Shown here piece by piece: positions 1,748 to 31,306 of a stretch of 64,000 nucleotides of DNA. Position 1 is the stretch's first letter; every line of letters begins with the position of its first letter. A program made the position numbers and the translations under genes. The notes below the pieces were generated by a model that saw only the letters and a list, made by a program, of their open reading frames with translations, ran no database searches and had not been told where the DNA came from. Source of the DNA: Spiroplasma alleghenense. GTDB lineage: Bacteria; Bacillota_I; Bacilli_A; Mycoplasmatales; Mycoplasmataceae. The stretch lies in NCBI RefSeq assembly GCF_003363775.1, contig NZ_CP031376.1, positions 248,001 through 312,000 of the forward strand. Direction: 5' to 3'.

Positions 1748-3280
1748 TTAAATTAATTTTTCAAAATCAAGAATTTTGTCGGCTCATTTGGTTGAAAAAT
1801 TAATGTCGTGAGTTGTAAGTAAAACTGTACCCTCAAATTTTTGAATACTTTCTAGCAAAGCTTCTTTAGCTAAAACATCAATATGGTTTGTAGGTTCATC
1901 TAATATTAAAAGACTGCAAGGCACTAGACTGGCTTCTGCCAATCTAACCTTGGTCTGCTCTCCCCCAGACAAAAGACTCATCGGGTTATTCATTAATGCA
2001 CTTTTTAGCCCAAATTTTGCAATAGTTCCACGAATTACTGATTCAGTCATGTCTTCGTGTAAATTTTTTAAATATTGGACAGGAGTTAAATCGGTATTTT
2101 TTTCAACTTGTCTAAAGTAAGCAACCTGAACTCCGTTTCCTAATTCACAAGTTCCGTTAACTGCCGGAATTTCGTTAGCTAAGGTTTTTAAAAAAGTAGT
2201 CTTCCCAATCCCATTATATCCACTAACGATACATTTTTCACCTTCGCGTAACTCAAAGTTTAGTGGATGGATTAAGGGAAAGTCATAACCAATTTCTAAG
2301 TCAGTGGCTTTAACAATAACTGCACTGGCTGGTCGTTTGTATTTAAAACTAAAGTGAGGCTTGGCTTGTTGATTTAGTTCCTTCATCACATCCATTTTGT
2401 CAAGTTGTTTTTGACGAGATTGTGCAGATTTGGCAGTAGAAGCTCTCGCTGCATTCTTAGCAACATAAGTTTCCAATTTCTTAATGGTTTTTTGTTGACC
2501 CATATATTCTTTGGTATATTGTTCTTTTCTTAATTCAGATTGCTCGATGTATTTATCAAAGTTACCAACATAGCGATTAATTTTTAAGTTTTCAATTTCA
2601 TAAATTATATTACAAGTTTTATTAATGAAATCACTATCATGGGATACCATAATAAATGCTGGTTCAAAAGTTTGTAAAAATTTAGCTAATCAGTCAACTT
2701 GCTCAATATCTAAAAAGTTGGTTGGCTCATCTAAAAGCAGATAGTCATTTTCGCTTAATAACAATTTAGCTAAAAGGACTTTACCACGTTGACCCCCAGA
2801 AAGGCTGCCCATTTTCTGTTCTAGTCTTTCGTGCTCGATTCCCAGACCATCAACTAAACTACGAATTTTTTTACCTATAATTTCAAAGTCATTTAAATCT
2901 AAGTGTTCTTGAAGTTTTAAGGCTCTAACTAATTCGTCTTCTTTATACTCAACCGCCATGTCCTCGTAAATTTTGGCAATTTGTGCTTCAATATCAAATA
3001 ATTCTTTGTAAGCACCTTCCAAATAGGCGTTGACAGTTTGTTCCCCGTCAACTTTTTGATGCTGATCTAAATAACCAACTGTAACTCTGGGGTGAACTTC
3101 AATATTTCCGTGATCGGGTACAATTGAATTGTTGATAATATTTAAAAGAGTGGTTTTACCAACCCCATTGGCCCCGACTAAAGCGATATGCTCGCCTTTA
3201 TTAATTCTTAAAGTGGCATTTTCATATAATTTTTTACCACCATTAGCGTGGGTTAAGCCTTCAATGTATACTAAACTCAT
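1748..3280 (-). CDS. ABC-F family ATPase (ribosome-associated)
   Basis: The frame is 510 aa with two ATP-binding cassettes and no membrane segments, which is the ABC-F layout. Cassette 1 has Walker A GANGVGKTT (~36-44), signature LSGGQRGK and Walker B LLLDEPTNFLD. After a charged linker (~210-290), cassette 2 has GYNGIGKTT, LSGGEQTK and LILDEPTNHID. One TGA between the cassettes and one near the C-terminus are Trp. Start ATG 3278-3280 is chosen because GGAGAA lies 8-9 nt upstream; an in-frame ATG at 3293-3295 has no such site. ABC-F proteins bind the ribosomal E site and help stalled or antibiotic-blocked ribosomes. The closest type is probably YkpA/YbiT, but the subfamily is not certain. Confidence 0.9.
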
Positions 3281-24109: not shown

Positions 24110-24406
24110 ATGCCAAGAAAAGATATTCATCCAAAGTATTTTGATGCAAAATTTATTTGTACAACTTGTAGTAACGAATTTGTTGGAGGTTCAACAAAAG
24201 GGGAAGAAATCAGATTAGATACTTGTTCTAACTGTCACCCTTTCTATACTGGAAACCAACAATACAGTAATGCTGCTGGACGTATTGAAAGATTTAACAC
24301 AAAATTTGTGAAAAAAGAAGAAACTGCTAAAAAAATTGCAATGGATTCTGAAGCTCAAAAAGCACAAAATGCTAAAACAAAAAAAGCTACAAAACCAGAA
24401 GCTTAA
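24110..24406 (+). CDS. rpmE: Ribosomal protein L31
   Basis: L31 bridges the 50S and 30S subunits at the central protuberance. The 98-aa product has the zinc-type L31 pattern: 'HPKYFDAKFICTTCSNEF' with CxxC (~17-20) and 'DTCSNCHPFYTG' (CxxCHPFYTG, ~38-47), followed by 'RIERFNTKF'. So it is the zinc-binding rather than the zinc-free paralogue. An extra 28-residue Lys/Ala/Glu-rich tail follows the usual end. AAGGAG lies 10 nt before ATG. A TATAAA -10-like box is at 24083-24088. Confidence 0.95.
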   Translation: MPRKDIHPKYFDAKFICTTCSNEFVGGSTKGEEIRLDTCSNCHPFYTGNQQYSNAAGRIERFNTKFVKKEETAKKIAMDSEAQKAQNAKTKKATKPEA

Positions 24407-24410
24407 TTTT

Positions 24411-24437
24411 AAAGGACCTAAATTAGGTCCTTTCTTT
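24411..24437 (+). terminator. Terminator after rpmE
   Basis: A 10-bp perfect stem AAAGGACCTA / TAGGTCCTTT with an AAT loop, followed by a T-rich run. Confidence 0.85.
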
Positions 24438-24485: not shown

Positions 24486-26345
24486 ATGAGTATTAAATTT
24501 GAAAATGTTAAAGTTACGACAAAAAAACAAAAACAATGATACTTGAATTTTAAGGCTGACTCAGGCAAGGTAACCAGTTTTATTTGCGATGATCGTTTAA
24601 TTAAATCAGAGTTTAAAAATATTATGAAGGGTTTAGGTCACGTAAGTGCAGGAAGAACCCTAATTAATGGTAATGATATGATTAACTATAAGTTGAATCG
24701 TAACCAAATTTCTGACTTGACAAAAGATAGTTATATTGAAAGGATTATTCCGCCACGTTTAAATCTTTTTCTTTCCTTACTTTTCAATCGAGATTTTATT
24801 AGGGATAGTAGAACTAAAATAATAAAAGCGCGTTATGACTATTTGTCATATAAAACTTCAAAAAATAATCAAACCGACCTTAAAATGCGTCAAGAAATTC
24901 AAAAAATCATTACTATTTTTATTGAAAATTCTATTAAGGTTGAAAAAGAATTGCTGGAGATATTTTTTAAGCAAATTACAGATTTTAATAACCAAAGAGC
25001 TGACAGTAAGATTAGTCAAGTAAGTGGTAATTTATCAATATTACTAAAAAGATTCAACCTATTAAAAGAATTAAACGCCAATAAGGAGCTTTACCTGACA
25101 TTTATGCAATCTTTGTGGGATAAAGTTTACGCCTTTATTGAATTGAGATATTCTTGTAACTGTGAATACAATAGCGGTAAAATTAAGAAAAAAGTTTCAA
25201 GAAAACTCCGCTTTTATGAGCACGAATGAATTGTAAAAGAACAACTAAAGTTAATTGATTTAGAAGTAACCCAATTAAAATCTTCAATTCAACATAATAA
25301 AATTGAAATAAAAAATTTGGCCAGAAAAATAAATAAAATTTTAAATGGTTATAAAAAGCTTGATGGGCAGGTTGGAATTCAATTAGTTGCAGACTTAAAA
25401 GTTTGAAATAACCTATCAGCTGATCAAAGATTTGAGTTTCGTCGTAAACAAGAAAACCTATTTTTTAAAATACTGCTAGATGAATCTAATATTATCAAGG
25501 GTAAAATTGTTGAAATTATTCATGATTACCATGAATTAGTTTTAAATAATCAAACCGAACAAGGAGATAAAGCAAACTTTAAATCAATTTGTAAAATTAA
25601 AAGATCACAAGTTCCTAGTCTTTATTCGCTTTCTCACTCATGAACAGAAGATGTTTTAAACAAATTGGAAATCAAATTTGACTGGTTTATTAGTTCGTTT
25701 AAGATTAGTTCTTTAGCCCAAATCTATTTGCAAATTTTAAGAGCTATCCACTTAAAGAAAAAGAATATTATTATTGATAATAAATTTCATTTGCTTACTA
25801 AAAATGATGCAAATTTGTTAACAAATACCATTAAGAGAATGAATGCTTTCTTCCCAAAGATATCGATTATAATTTTGGAAAATAATTTTAAGAATCTAAT
25901 TAATCTTAAAGATGAATTTTATCTTATAAATGAAAATGACCTAACTAAAATTGTTTTAGAAGATGAATTTAATAATCCCGAAAGCCAATATTTATCAGAA
26001 TTTGATGAAAAGTATTTCAAAATTCCTGCTACCTTACAAAAAAACAATTTAAATATTGTTGACCAAAGTATGAAATTATCAAAAAAATATTCAGATCAAG
26101 AATTTAATAAAATTAATATCAATCCATTTCAAGTATTATTATTAGAAGATAACAAGGCTAAAAATTTTGTATCCTTTATTGCAAAAATAAAAAATGTTTC
26201 AGAATTTATCGATTCAAACCTTTATGTTGCCGAGATTAGCCCTAATGTTTCAACTTATTTTTACCAGAAAGAAAAGATTAATGAAAATAAATCTGTGAAA
26301 ATAGCAATTCCTGAATCTGCAGTTATTTTACCTAAGGAGAACTAA
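24486..26345 (+). CDS. Degenerate ABC-transporter ATPase-like protein
   Basis: This 619-aa protein looks like an ABC ATPase whose catalytic motifs have decayed. Residues ~1-70 keep the opening of a UgpC/MalK-type subunit ('IKFENVKVTTKK', a 'GRTLINGNDMINYK' strand pair), but the Walker A position reads 'FICDDRLIKSEF' with no GxxGxGK. A long helical insert (~100-400) follows, as in the elongated mycoplasma UgpC-like ATPases. At ~405-480 'SSLAQIYLQILRAI', 'KKNIIIDNKFHLL' and 'ISIIILENNF' sit where the signature, Walker B and H-loop should be, without catalytic residues. The end (~545-615) resembles a TOBE fold ('LYVAEISPN', 'VKIAIPESAVIL'). The frame is intact, so it is probably expressed in a non-catalytic role. 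The assignment rests on motif shape only. Confidence 0.6.
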
Positions 26346-27290
26346 ATGAGAGAAAATTATAAGATTTTAGAAGAGAAAATAAAAAAATTTAGAACCATAA
26401 TTATTGCAAAACACGTTCATCCAGATTTTGATGCAATCGGAAGTGCCTTTGGTTTAAAATCAATTATAGAAGATAACTTCGAATCAAAAGAAGTATTTGT
26501 AGTTGGTTCAACAATTGATGGTGGTCTTTATGAAAATCCAAAATTGAATGACCAATTAATCAGCGAATCACTACTGATAACTTGTGATACCGCTAATCGA
26601 GAAAGAATTGATTTTGATTCATTTGATAGTGTAAAAGAAGTATTTAAAATCGATCATCATGTTGATGGTGATGATTTTGCCAGCAACGAATTAATTGATA
26701 AAACAGCAATTGCTTGTTGCCAAATGATTACAATTTGAGCTAATTCGTTAGATTTAATTATTTCCCCAATTGCTGCAAATCACTTATTTAAAGGAATAAT
26801 AACTGATTCAAATAGATTTATGTATGAAAATACGAACGCTCAAACTTTTGAAGCTGCAGGTATTTTGATTAATGCCGGGGCAAAATTTACAGAAATTTAC
26901 GATAGTCTTTATATTAGAAATTGAAAAGTTCAAAAGTGAATAAATTATTGCTTTGCAAAAGCAGAGTTAAAAAATGATATTGCTTATATCAAAGTTTTAA
27001 GAAAAGAATATATTGATTTGGGTCTTTCCTTGGAGGAAGTTAAATCTTGCTTAGGGAGTATTTGTGGTATCCAAGAAGTTAAGATTTCTATTTTAGCAAT
27101 TGAAGTTGAAAATGATATCAAACTTTCTCTTAGAAGTTCAATTTTTTCGGTTAACCAGATAGCAAAAAAATTTAATGGTGGAGGTCACCGTTTGGCAGCA
27201 GCATGTAAAATAAAATCTTGAGAAGAATTTGAAGAGGTTCTTCAAGAAGCACAAAAAATTATTAAAAGTGAGGAAAAAAATGTTAAATAA
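26346..27290 (+). CDS. DHH/DHHA1 phosphoesterase (NrnA/pAp-phosphatase type)
   Basis: The 314-aa protein has the DHH motifs in order: 'HVHPDFDAIGSA' (~25-36), 'TCDTANRERID' (~78-88), 'FKIDHHVDGDDF' (~102-113) and the DHHA1 'NGGGHRLAAAC' (~278-288). Proteins of this layout degrade short oligoribonucleotides or dephosphorylate pAp in Firmicutes and mollicutes. The family usually has HxDxDAxGS at the first motif, matched here apart from a P. ATG is 1 bp after the upstream stop region and AAGGAGA lies inside the upstream gene, so the two are co-translated. The tail overlaps tdk by 11 bp. Confidence 0.9.
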
Positions 27291-27879
27291 AAATTTACAA
27301 AAAAAAGTCGGATGAATTGAATTAATAACTGGATGTATGTTTGCGGGTAAAACCGAAGAGTTCATTCGTCGTTTACGCCGTCATAGTTATGCTAAAAGAA
27401 ATGTTATAGCTTTTAAACCAATTATGGATGATCGATATTCAGTTGATAAAATTTCGTCTCACTCCGGAACCCAATTGGAGTCATACCCTGTTAAGAATAG
27501 TTTGGAAATTATCAAGAAAATAAATGAGCTAGATAAGACTAAAAAAATTGATGTAATTGGAATTGATGAAATTCAATTTTTTGACGAAGGTGTAGTTAAT
27601 TTAGTGCAAGAATTTGCAGACAAGGGTATAATAGTTATTGTTAATGGATTGGATAAAGATTTTAAGTGCGAACCATTTAAAAATGTAGATCAATTACTGG
27701 TTCAAGCGGAGTTTGTTGATAAATTATTAGCTATATGCCACAGTTGTGGTTCGAATGCAAATAGAACTCAAAGAATAGTTAATGGTAAACCAGCGGCAGC
27801 GAATGAACCTATTATTTTAGTTTCAGGTGAGGAACAATATGAAGCTCGTTGTCGTCACTGTTACATTAGACCAAAATAA
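27280..27879 (+). CDS. tdk: Thymidine kinase
   Basis: Tdk phosphorylates thymidine, part of nucleoside salvage. The 199-aa type II enzyme has the P-loop 'GCMFAGKTEE' (~18-27), 'DEIQFFDEGVV' (~92-102, catalytic Glu region), lid-type 'GLDKDFKCEPF' and two zinc pairs 'CHSCG' (~150) and 'CRHC' (~192). GAGGA lies 6 nt before ATG, inside the DHH gene, with which it overlaps. Ten bp later prfA begins; tdk-prfA adjacency is common in Firmicutes. Confidence 0.95.
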
Positions 27880-27888
27880 GGAGAAAAT

Positions 27889-28971
27889 ATGAATAGTAAG
27901 ACACTAGAAGCATTACAAGTAATGCAGAAACGAATGCAGCAAATTGATGCTGATTTACAAAATGAAGATATCCTAAGAGATATTAAAAAAATTACAGAAC
28001 TTAACAAAGAACGTTCAAACCTCGAGGAACCTGTAGAATTATTAAAAAAATTCGAAGCAAATATTAACAACATTAAAGAGGCTCGCGAAGTTTTAGAAAA
28101 TGAAAAAGATCCTGAATTAAGAGAAATGGCAAAAGCTATTTTAGAAGAAGAAGAGGTAAAAACTCCTGGAATAGAATCGGAAATTGATTTAATTTTAATG
28201 CCAAAAGATCCAAATGATGATAAAAATGTAATTGTAGAAATCCGTGGAGCTGCTGGTGGAGATGAAGCCAACATATTTGCCGGGGATTTATTCAAAATGT
28301 ACACAAAGTACTGCGAAAAAAATAATTGAAAAATTGACTTGCTTGACACTTCTCCATCAGAAGCGGGAGGATTCTCTCAAATTTCTTTCATGGTTAAAGG
28401 TAACAAAGTATTTTCAAAATTAAAATTTGAATCAGGAAGCCATAGAGTTCAAAGGGTACCGAAAACTGAATCAAAGGGAAGAATTCAAACTTCTACTGCA
28501 ACGGTTGTTGTCTTGCCCGAGGTAAGTGATATTGAGGTTGAAATTAAACCATCAGATCTTAGAATTGATACTTATCGTTCTGGGGGAGCTGGAGGGCAAC
28601 ACGTTAATACAACTGATTCAGCTGTAAGAATTACTCATATACCAACAGGGGTTGTTGCATCTTCTCAAGACGGAAGAAGTCAACACGACAATAAAGACAT
28701 TGCAATGACAATGCTACGTGCAAGAATTTATGAAGCAGAATTAGAAAAACAAAATTCTGAAACTGCTGGAATGCGTAAAAGTGCAGTTGGTACTGGGGCT
28801 CGTAGTGAAAAAATTAGAACTTATAACTATGCCCAAAATCGAGTAACCGACCACCGAATTAATTTAACTCTTCAAAAATTGGATCAAGTTATGGAAGGCG
28901 CGATTGAAGAATTTATTTCAGAATTAATAAACAATGAGCAAAAAGAGAAAGTGGCTCAACACCTCCAATAG
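27889..28971 (+). CDS. prfA: Peptide chain release factor 1
   Basis: RF1 ends translation at UAA and UAG. The 360-aa product has the codon-reading region '[20 protein letters not shown]' with a P-x-T tripeptide (PKT, ~195), and the catalytic '[10 protein letters not shown]' (GGQ, ~233). The absence of RF2 in UGA-Trp mollicutes makes this the only class-I release factor expected. One TGA is Trp. AAGGAGA lies 5 nt before ATG. The prmC start directly follows its stop codon, and PrmC methylates the GGQ glutamine of this protein, so the pairing is functional. Confidence 0.96.
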
Positions 28972-29820
28972 ATGTTAATCAGTGAATTTGCAAAAAATAA
29001 GGACATTGATTTTAAAAATAAAGATGAAATCAAAGCTTTTAATCAGATTGCCTCTCGAATATTAAATTTTCAAGCAAAAGATTTAATAACAAAATGAGAT
29101 TATGAACTTTCAAAAAAAGAAGTTACTAATTTTTCAAAATACTGACATCGTTTTCTTCAAGGAATGCCGCTAGCTTATATAACAAATACTAGTTATTTTT
29201 ACAATAGTGATATTTATGTAGATAAAAGAGTCTTGATTCCGAGATTGGAGACCGAACTTTTAGTAGAGGAAGCCATTAATTTCAGCAAAATCCATTTCAG
29301 CAAAGAAATTCCAATTTTGGCAGACATTTGCAGCGGCAGTGGAGCAATTGGTGTGAGTTTTTTGACCGAAATCGAAAATGCTTTTGTTTTTGCAAGTGAT
29401 ATATCAAAAAAAGCGCTGAAAGTAGCTAAAAAGAACTATGAAAGATTTGATAAAGAATCGTATTCAATTAATCATGGTGATTTTTTAAAACCCCTTATTA
29501 AATCTCAAATTAAAGCCAATATAATAATAATTAATCCCCCATATATTAGTAGAAATGATGTAAATATCAGCGAATCAACAATTAAATTCGAACCTCATCT
29601 TGCATTATTTTGCGAAGATGAAGGCATGTTTTTTTATAATCAATTTTTTAAATTATGAAAACAGGTAGTTAATTTGGAGAAGCCATTTATGATTGCTTTA
29701 GAATTCGGTTTTAATCAGAAGGAAAAAATTGAAACTTTGGCTAAAAAACACTTGAAAGATTTTAAATGAGAAATAAAAAAAGACTATTTTAAAAACTGGA
29801 GATATTTAATAATTAGTTAG
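28972..29820 (+). CDS. prmC: Release factor glutamine methyltransferase
   Basis: PrmC methylates the GGQ glutamine of release factors with SAM. The 282-aa product has the family layout: an N-terminal helical domain, 'RFLQGMPLAYI' (~58-68), 'VLIPRLETELLVEEA' (~87-101), SAM loop 'ADICSGSGAIGVS' (~118-130) and the catalytic 'INPPYIS' (~189-195). The usual 'DxGTGSG' is 'DICSGSG' here, a normal variant. ATG immediately follows the prfA stop. Four TGA codons are Trp. Confidence 0.93.
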
Positions 29821-29830
29821 GAGTGATAAG

Positions 29831-31306
29831 ATGGAAAAAATTGATTTGGAAAATATAACTCCAAGGAAAAGTTATTTCAGCATTATCACTCTTATTATTT
29901 TTTTCTCAGTAATAATTTCAGTTCCTTCAATTGTTTTTATTTATATCACATATGCCAACATAAACTTAAAGCTATATACTGAAAGTTATGATTTAATTAA
30001 ACCAATTATTTCACCAAGATTATTAAATCCTGATAAAATTTTTATTTTTCAATGAATAGGATTTTCTTGCTTTTCATTCTTCTTAATAATGATGTTATTT
30101 GTTGGAGTTTTATTTAATAACCGAAAAATATCTGTTAATAAAAAAATCGTTTATATTTCTTTTATACTTTTAATGTTGATAGCATGAATTTCTTTTATTA
30201 GTGTTGCTCAAAATGAATATGCCAATTTTCAACTTTTTTTTAAATATCAGAATCTAACAAATTATTATGAAAATAGCAATTATCCTGAAGATAATCGAGA
30301 AGCATGAATTGCCATGGAAAATATTAAAAAACAATTTACAATCAACTATGATAATAATTATATATTTGGATGACTTTCAAATAACAATGTTTGATGAATG
30401 CTATTTGCTCAACTCTCAGTTGCAATTATTTCATTTATTACTTTGCAAGATCACTTGTTTAAAAAGACAGATATTGAAGAAAACATTGATAGAATAATTA
30501 AGATAAATATTAAAAAAAGCGAATTTGGAGATTCATTTATCAAAAAAATATATAATCGTTTATTTGTAGTAACTGAGAAAAATATTTCCTTGTTAATGAT
30601 TATTTCTTCGACTCTGTTAATTTTGCCACAGTTAATTTACACAATCGCAATCTCTTCGGGAGAAAGTGCGGTTTCTAGTTTTGCAAATTGAAATTACTTA
30701 GTTCCCAAAATAGTTACTGACGACCAAAATTTTCAAGAATATATTAAGTTAGCTGAAAATCAGCCGTTCTCATTTTTTACCCTAATTCAGTTACCGGTAA
30801 TTGCGGTTGGCCTAACAATGTCGACAATGATAATTTTTATAGCAATTTATTTTAAAAATGACAAATATACTGATGGTCTCTACTTGGCGCAATTTGTAAT
30901 CTTTATTGGGGAATTATTTTTCACAATAATTGTTACAGTGATTTCAAAATATCAATTACAGCATCTAGAAAACATTTGAAACCAAGATTCAGGAATCAAA
31001 AAAAGCTTTTTAGATTTGTACAATAGTTTTCAAAAATCAGAAACATTAGAAGGTGATCATAAAATTTTTTATAACAACTTTTTTAACTTAGTCTTTGGTA
31101 AAGATGCCATCTTTAGAATACTATTTATTGATTTAAAATCAGATTCACCAAAAATAAATAGCTTATGACTAAGCTCTAGTCAATACATTGCTGAATCAAT
31201 AATTTCATTTTCATTTGCAGTTGTTGCAACAGCGGTTATTGGTAATAAGATGCATTTAATCCGTAAAGAAAAAAATAAATTATTACAAGAACACGGGACC
31301 GAATAG
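29831..31306 (+). CDS. Polytopic membrane protein, unknown
   Basis: The 491-aa protein has about eight hydrophobic segments (roughly residues 18-40, 75-98, 105-122, 190-208, 250-275, 315-345, 355-378 and 455-472). A short acidic N-terminus and a basic C-terminal tail ('NKMHLIRKEKNKL') suggest both ends are inside the cell. Charged loops lie between segments 4-5 and 7-8. I recognise no transporter signature. ATG is 10 bp after prmC with TAGGAGTG before it, so it may be co-transcribed with prfA-prmC. Its end overlaps a terminator-like hairpin. Many TGA codons are Trp, as is usual in membrane proteins of this code. Confidence 0.75.

Follow-up and report, generated by a model that had tools for sequence, protein, structure and literature searches.

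The locus examined here raises the question of what a protein built like an importer ATPase does when every motif for ATP binding and hydrolysis has been lost. It lies in a 64,000-nucleotide stretch of Spiroplasma alleghenense (RefSeq assembly GCF_003363775.1, contig NZ_CP031376.1, positions 248,001 to 312,000 of the forward strand), called the window below; the host genome has 1.34 Mb in one contig. The gene, termed here the pseudo-ABC (ATP-binding cassette) gene, is found between rpmE and nrnA (Table 1). Its frame, 24486-26345 on the plus strand, is open over 619 codons with code 4, TGA encoding tryptophan at W18, W248, W307 and W386, which bears out the undamaged 1.86-kb frame described in a first-pass annotation made from the letters of the window. 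We are confident that the product combines a discontinuous ABC nucleotide-binding domain (NBD), interrupted by a long helical insert, with a C-terminal domain of the MalK type, that it descends from the elongated ATPases of mycoplasma importers or shares a common source with them, and that its ATP-binding and ATP-splitting residues are gone while purifying selection maintains it. The order of the surrounding genes makes it the likely orthologue of MMSYN1_0138 of the minimal cell.

Searched as a single sequence, the window protein has no match in the PDB, no real match in Pfam and nothing useful in NCBIfam, so that its resemblance to ABC ATPases is provable only through its relatives. With a cut-off of E 1, profile A1, built from 29 of its orthologues, retrieves 150 different PDB sequences, and nearly all of the best 60 are ABC ATPases. 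The best among the matches listed (E 3e-13) covers both NBD halves, and profile positions 405-598 match PotA (E 2e-11), its C-terminal region included, in line with the regulatory-like C-terminal domain proposed earlier. Scans of the 29 members detect ABC_tran of Pfam in 5 at E up to 0.1 and a single NCBIfam ABC ATPase model in up to 8 (best E about 1e-18); all 25 NCBIfam families among the matches listed are ABC ATPases. Order-wide A1 searches also yielded catalytic proteins of 598-792 amino acids (aa) whose insert has the same position. Profile-profile alignment (hhalign) with these elongated catalytic ATPases gives a probability of 99.4 and an E of 1.7e-21 over 591 columns, that is, end to end including the insert, which establishes both the kinship with elongated UgpC/MalK-type ATPases and the common position of the long insert that the first reading had recognized. 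The same comparison restricted to the insert is weaker (probability 63, E 6.8e-5). Some ABC frames of 520-535 aa from genus g8 also turned up in the A1 search.

The loss of catalytic motifs is apparent in a joint alignment of 45 members of the window-protein family and 10 catalytic relatives. Walker A, GxxGxGK[ST], is present in none of the 45 members, nor does any keep the set formed by the LSGGQ signature, Walker B with the catalytic glutamate and the H-loop histidine. In the 10 catalytic relatives Walker A, Walker B and the H-loop histidine are intact, and so is the signature except in one (locus L103), which has LSWGQ. The strings quoted originally as replaced Walker A and Walker B motifs are present at residues 32-43 and 428-437, and the replacement of these and of the signature residues is confirmed; the suggested check of orthologues finds the motif set lost in 45/45. 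Alignment and missing motif set together identify the window protein as a catalytically dead relative of elongated MalK/UgpC-type ATPases. Conservation in its family does not extend to the Q-loop region, the part that couples to permeases. The LSWGQ protein (L103 2120-3916, G019:C1:126119-127912), an elongated catalytic relative that also has DEALSHLD, may itself be losing activity.

The proposal that the protein has a nucleotide-binding-domain fold was examined by structure prediction. Two AlphaFold models, one of the window protein and one of its Mesoplasma seiffertii orthologue, were made from six sequences each, with predicted local distance difference test (pLDDT) values of 65 and 67. The mean of 65 in the first combines a confident insert with a poorly predicted N-terminal half and C-terminal domain; the long helices predicted in the insert span residues 102-124, 129-175, 181-222, 246-292 and 294-353, with pLDDT mostly 70-92. 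In fold comparison each of its best 50 rows is an ABC ATPase or a complex that contains one, with a top Z of 9.2 and a Z of 7.9 for MalK 1q12, as expected for such a fold. With the second model most rows were helical bundles of an unspecific kind (Z up to 8.1); in Foldseek it had no match at E<=0.001, sugar-ABC (MalK-type) rows standing among the first 15 with E 0.03-0.07. Rows of Rad50/SMC, dynein, ClyA and BAR proteins obtained with this model were rejected as the unspecific kind typical of helical bundles.

Three groups of known ATPases help to place the protein. The elongated MalK/UgpC-type importer ATPases, to which MG187, MPN134 and MAG_5050 (M. agalactiae) probably belong, operon context being part of the basis, share with it a length of about 600-790 aa, an insert after the Q-loop region and a MalK-type C-terminus; unlike it, they keep the catalytic motifs, are adjoined by two permeases and have no invariant Cys-x-Cys (CxC), D212 or H349. 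PotA, MalK and CysA match both NBD halves and the C-terminal domain, but are catalytically complete and have no long insert. S. alleghenense has a separate, normal ATPase of 351 aa that we name PotA-like, with permease genes downstream of it. In Rad50 and SMC ATPases a coiled coil is inserted between the Q-loop and signature regions, and the zinc hook of Rad50 is a CxxC at the coil apex. The window protein likewise has a helical insert between the halves of the ABC head and cysteines in the insert; it differs by a CxC (45/45) instead of CxxC, by the lack of an ATP site and in that no sequence link was found.

The most conserved stretch of the family, residues 206-232, lies in this insert. C224, C226, D212 and H349 are identical in 45/45 members, Y348 in 44/45 and W307 in 43/45, and H346 is found in all 37 members of the host's own family; the CxC, D212 and H349 are not invariant in the elongated catalytic ATPases. 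Judged by helix order, most of the conserved residues are predicted to sit where the long helices end towards the ABC head. This arrangement suggests that C224, C226 and H349, perhaps with H346, form a putative metal site.

The gene is under strong purifying selection (pN/pS about 0.2), which agrees with the earlier deduction from the intact frame. Between the window gene and its nearest relative, of the same genus (75-76% identical), the proportion of nonsynonymous differences (pN) is 0.151 and that of synonymous differences (pS) 0.756, synonymous sites being saturated. The pN is 0.094 in the insert, 0.096 in the C-terminal NBD half and 0.331 in the C-terminal domain; the neighbouring genes prmC and nrnA have a similar pN. 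A1 matches were obtained in 60 own-family genomes, of which 58 have the frame open; matches over all or nearly all of the length came from 9 genomes in family f5 and 5 in family f9 (f, L and G labels are our handles for families, loci and genomes); the non-matching rows listed include no own-family genome. In a class-wide sample of 296 genomes (E<=1e-15) matches were restricted to the own family, the presence of f5 and f9 in the sample being uncertain. Relatives named in the protein search are Mesoplasma seiffertii, M. photuris, M. lactucae, 'Acholeplasma multilocale' and Williamsoniiplasma lucivorax. A single origin of the gene in f1, f5 and f9 is compatible with, though not established by, a test on the pyrG tree (approximately unbiased test, p-AU 0.338). 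Two own-family copies, L115 4772-6693 (G178) and L235 6220-8089 (G199), are each split by one frameshift with their neighbours in place, through sequencing error or recent damage.

The order rpmE, pseudo-ABC gene, nrnA, tdk is also that of M. mycoides. In JCVI-syn3A, rpmE is 0137, ytqI/nrnA 0139 and thymidine kinase 0140, according to PMC6609329, and the locus number of MMSYN1_0138 of JCVI-syn3.0 falls between the first two, the same place as the window gene. A study of the 149 genes of no known function among the 473 originally retained in the minimal cell reported that MMSYN1_0138 resembles the ATP-binding regions of ABC proteins by homology and that its ATP site is not conserved (Antczak et al. 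2019, PMC6629657). Since gene order and published description both agree, the window gene is likely its orthologue. Within the open-access literature searched MMSYN1_0138 is named in that article only, whose available sections give no origin, partner or function for it. The degenerate ATP site of the M. mycoides orthologue is thus already in print. The family-wide picture, the source in a nuclease-linked importer ATPase, the constant pairing with nrnA and the invariant insert residues are new, none having been found in the same literature.

The pairing with nrnA emerged from 25 loci of 24 genomes (L091 and L123 belong to one species) in three families, whose genes were labelled by similarity to window genes. 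The nrnA gene is directly 3' of the pseudo-ABC gene in 25/25 loci, at -17 to +33 bases when counted to the nearest plausible start (zero in the window). Directly upstream is rpmE in 24/25, the labelled open reading frame (ORF) being on the other strand in L130; tdk is labelled in 24/25 and prfA in 25/25. The gap following rpmE is 44-177 bases where measured; both the window and 16/25 loci have a terminator-like hairpin there, counted in the loci without a shuffle control. With this hairpin upstream, the pseudo-ABC gene likely heads its own transcript, shared with nrnA. No permease is labelled beside it in the 25 loci, where not all unlabelled ORFs are identified. Mesoplasma lactucae (L094) has two tandem nrnA copies 3' of the gene (G015:C1:773571-775466). 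Among 12 genomes of the order without the pseudo-ABC gene, none has nrnA beside prfA, the region reading rpmE-(tdk)-prfA-prmC or prfA-prmC, and all 12 carry nrnA elsewhere; the pseudo-ABC gene and nrnA therefore probably entered the rpmE-prfA region jointly. The NrnA tree, with weak deep branches, gave no support to the further idea that ATPase and nrnA were duplicated jointly.

The operons of the catalytic relatives comprise, in L198, L211 and others, touching genes for NrnA, a large lipoprotein-like protein, the ATPase and two BPD_transp_1 permeases. In families f3 and f7 the elongated ATPase is preceded by an SNase-domain protein (the f7 match is just below the model cut-off), and in one f7 genome its operon includes an MG185/MG260-type lipoprotein. 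Counting genomes with an elongated catalytic ATPase at E<=1e-60, nrnA is found on the same strand within 3 kb in 8/17 of the own family, 3/3 of f3, 0/4 of f7 and 0/3 of f9; within 8 kb and on any strand, it is found in 3/4 f7 genomes. At this threshold no full elongated catalytic ATPase is present in 20 of the 37 own-family genomes carrying the pseudo-ABC gene, S. alleghenense included, and 4 of these 20 have a C-terminal match only, to a frame of 360-403 aa; the dead protein is thus independent of the elongated catalytic ATPase. SNase genes have been located upstream of such ABC operons, for which import of nucleic-acid precursors was proposed (PMC3585158; reviews PMC9740415 and PMC12115388). 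In the wall-less Hujiaoplasma nucleasis, NrnA, nuclease and ABC genes share one nucleic-acid degradation locus, and many genes are up with DNA and RNA (PMC10470597). We presume that the operon of the catalytic relatives is a nucleic-acid import operon. Sets with ATPase, permeases, nrnA and lipoprotein-like or SNase genes (L198 4503-12324, L211 4873-12443, L203 5237-10970) are candidate oligonucleotide importers across the order. In family f11 (L212 4219-10404, L213 1969-8156) nrnA is followed by two large genes and a 506-aa ABC ATPase that is related to the elongated ATPases (E about 1e-36 and 1e-34).

We favour, with a probability of roughly 0.4, the hypothesis that the pseudo-ABC protein is an ATP-independent partner of NrnA derived from an importer ATPase; its binding, metal site and substrate are what we infer here. 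The protein would no longer drive transport and would act in the cytosol as an ATP-free scaffold or adaptor for NrnA, the DHH phosphoesterase of the next gene. The conserved base of its helical bundle would probably hold NrnA or short oligonucleotide substrates, and the metal site of C224, C226, H349 and perhaps H346 may hold this base together. In evolutionary terms, the transporter ATPase of a nucleic-acid scavenging operon would have been recruited, with an nrnA gene, into a housekeeping operon. A bolder version, in which loss of the ATP site and a Cys/His metal site fixed at the base of the helical insert turned the importer ATPase into a dedicated adaptor feeding short RNA or DNA fragments to NrnA, appears to us rather improbable. 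Several facts weigh against a partnership with NrnA. Neighbours in a conserved operon need not interact, and rpmE, prfA and prmC are equally constant. Correlation of evolutionary rates is unspecific, with a partial r of 0.30 for nrnA versus 0.50 for tdk, and the NrnA tree, weak in its deep branches, does not group the NrnA linked to the pseudo-ABC gene with that linked to catalytic ATPases. The elongated ATPase has no nrnA within 8 kb in 9/17 own-family and 3/3 f9 genomes. As for the metal site, it is drawn from conservation and helix order only, and H346 is not kept in f9 or f5.

The first-pass annotation had seen in the protein a regulator or structural partner of an ABC transporter. It could be the subunit without catalytic activity in a heterodimeric importer, or a regulator whose insert and C-terminal domain dock on importer ATPases, given its end-to-end homology to importer ATPases, the MalK-like domain aligned with PotA and the many ABC ATPases available for pairing (43 PF00005 stretches in the genome). 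We consider this unlikely, as the constant neighbour is nrnA and not a labelled permease, the closest catalytic relative is missing from more than half of the own-family genomes with the gene (20/37) and the permease-coupling Q-loop region lacks conservation. Similarly doubtful is a structural protein bound to RNA or the ribosome, or an SMC/Rad50-like tether, making ATP-free contacts through the insert with its Cys-x-Cys, for which the link to rpmE, prfA and prmC would outweigh that to nrnA. The place of the insert is that of the SMC/Rad50 coiled coil, the translation-gene neighbours are constant, the protein is basic (isoelectric point 9.2-9.9 in 40/40) and Foldseek lists an SMC head, Rad50 and JetABC, all weakly and with E above 0.001. 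However, a basic proteome is general in JCVI-Syn3A (PMC12858079), genomes that lack the pseudo-ABC gene have the rpmE-(tdk)-prfA order too, the cysteine motif is CxC rather than the CxxC of a zinc hook and sequence homology points to importer ATPases. A fading gene, finally, would fit the disappearance of all catalytic motifs, the frameshift in 2/60 own-family copies and the fast-evolving C-terminal domain; its pN/pS, its presence in 60 own-family genomes and the retention of the gene-order orthologue in the minimal cell nearly refute this, leaving it a very slight chance.

Table 1. Features of the pseudo-ABC gene and its surroundings (window coordinates).
Feature	Position	Strand	Basis or remark
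Pseudo-ABC ATPase gene	24486..26345	+	619 aa, NCBI code 4, stop included; 40 full-length homologues
N-terminal NBD half, residues 1-105	24486..24800	+	Profile matches to PDB ABC ATPases; alignment with catalytic relatives
Walker A place, degenerate, FICDDRLIKSEF, residues 32-43	24579..24614	+	Alignment with catalytic relatives
Helical insert, residues 106-395	24801..25670	+	Predicted model; insert-only profile comparison
D212	25119..25121	+	Invariant (45/45 members)
C224-x-C226	25155..25163	+	Invariant (45/45 members); absent from catalytic relatives
H346-x-x-H349	25521..25532	+	H349 45/45; H346 37/37, own-family members only
C-terminal NBD half, residues 396-480	25671..25925	+	Profile matches, profile-profile alignment, fold comparison
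ABC signature place, degenerate, FKISSLA, residues 405-411	25698..25718	+	Alignment with catalytic relatives
Walker B place, degenerate, IIIDNKFHLL, residues 428-437	25767..25796	+	Alignment with catalytic relatives
C-terminal MalK/PotA-like domain, residues 481-619	25926..26342	+	Profile matches; fastest evolving part
rpmE (ribosomal protein L31), upstream neighbour	24110..24406	+	Name assigned from sequence; position conserved
Terminator-like hairpin between rpmE and pseudo-ABC gene	24411..24433	+	
nrnA (DHH-DHHA1 oligoribonuclease/pAp phosphatase)	26346..27290	+	Begins immediately 3' of the pseudo-ABC stop codon; NF053633 E 1.9e-56, below that model's cut-off
tdk, downstream neighbour	27280..27879	+	First ATG at 27280; ORF listed from 27229
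prfA (27889-28971) and prmC (28972-29820)	27889..29820	+	

Two further regions of the window deserve mention. The ORF at 29831-31306 codes for a 491-aa membrane protein with no significant Pfam match, conserved 3' of prmC in many own-family genomes. Near the window start, 1886-3223 (G000:C1:249886-251223, minus strand) encodes two ABC ATPase domains.

These results assign MMSYN1_0138 to a family and point to its likely evolutionary source; they also single out residues that are invariant away from the dead ATP site and name NrnA as a concrete candidate partner. In addition, they connect nuclease and nanoRNase genes with the elongated 'sugar' ATPases of mycoplasmas, supporting the idea that these ATPases import nucleic-acid fragments. 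Were the protein an adaptor that feeds NrnA, one unexplained gene of the minimal cell would have its place in nanoRNA disposal, and the catalytic cousins of the protein would power a mycoplasma system that imports oligonucleotides and hands them on to NrnA.
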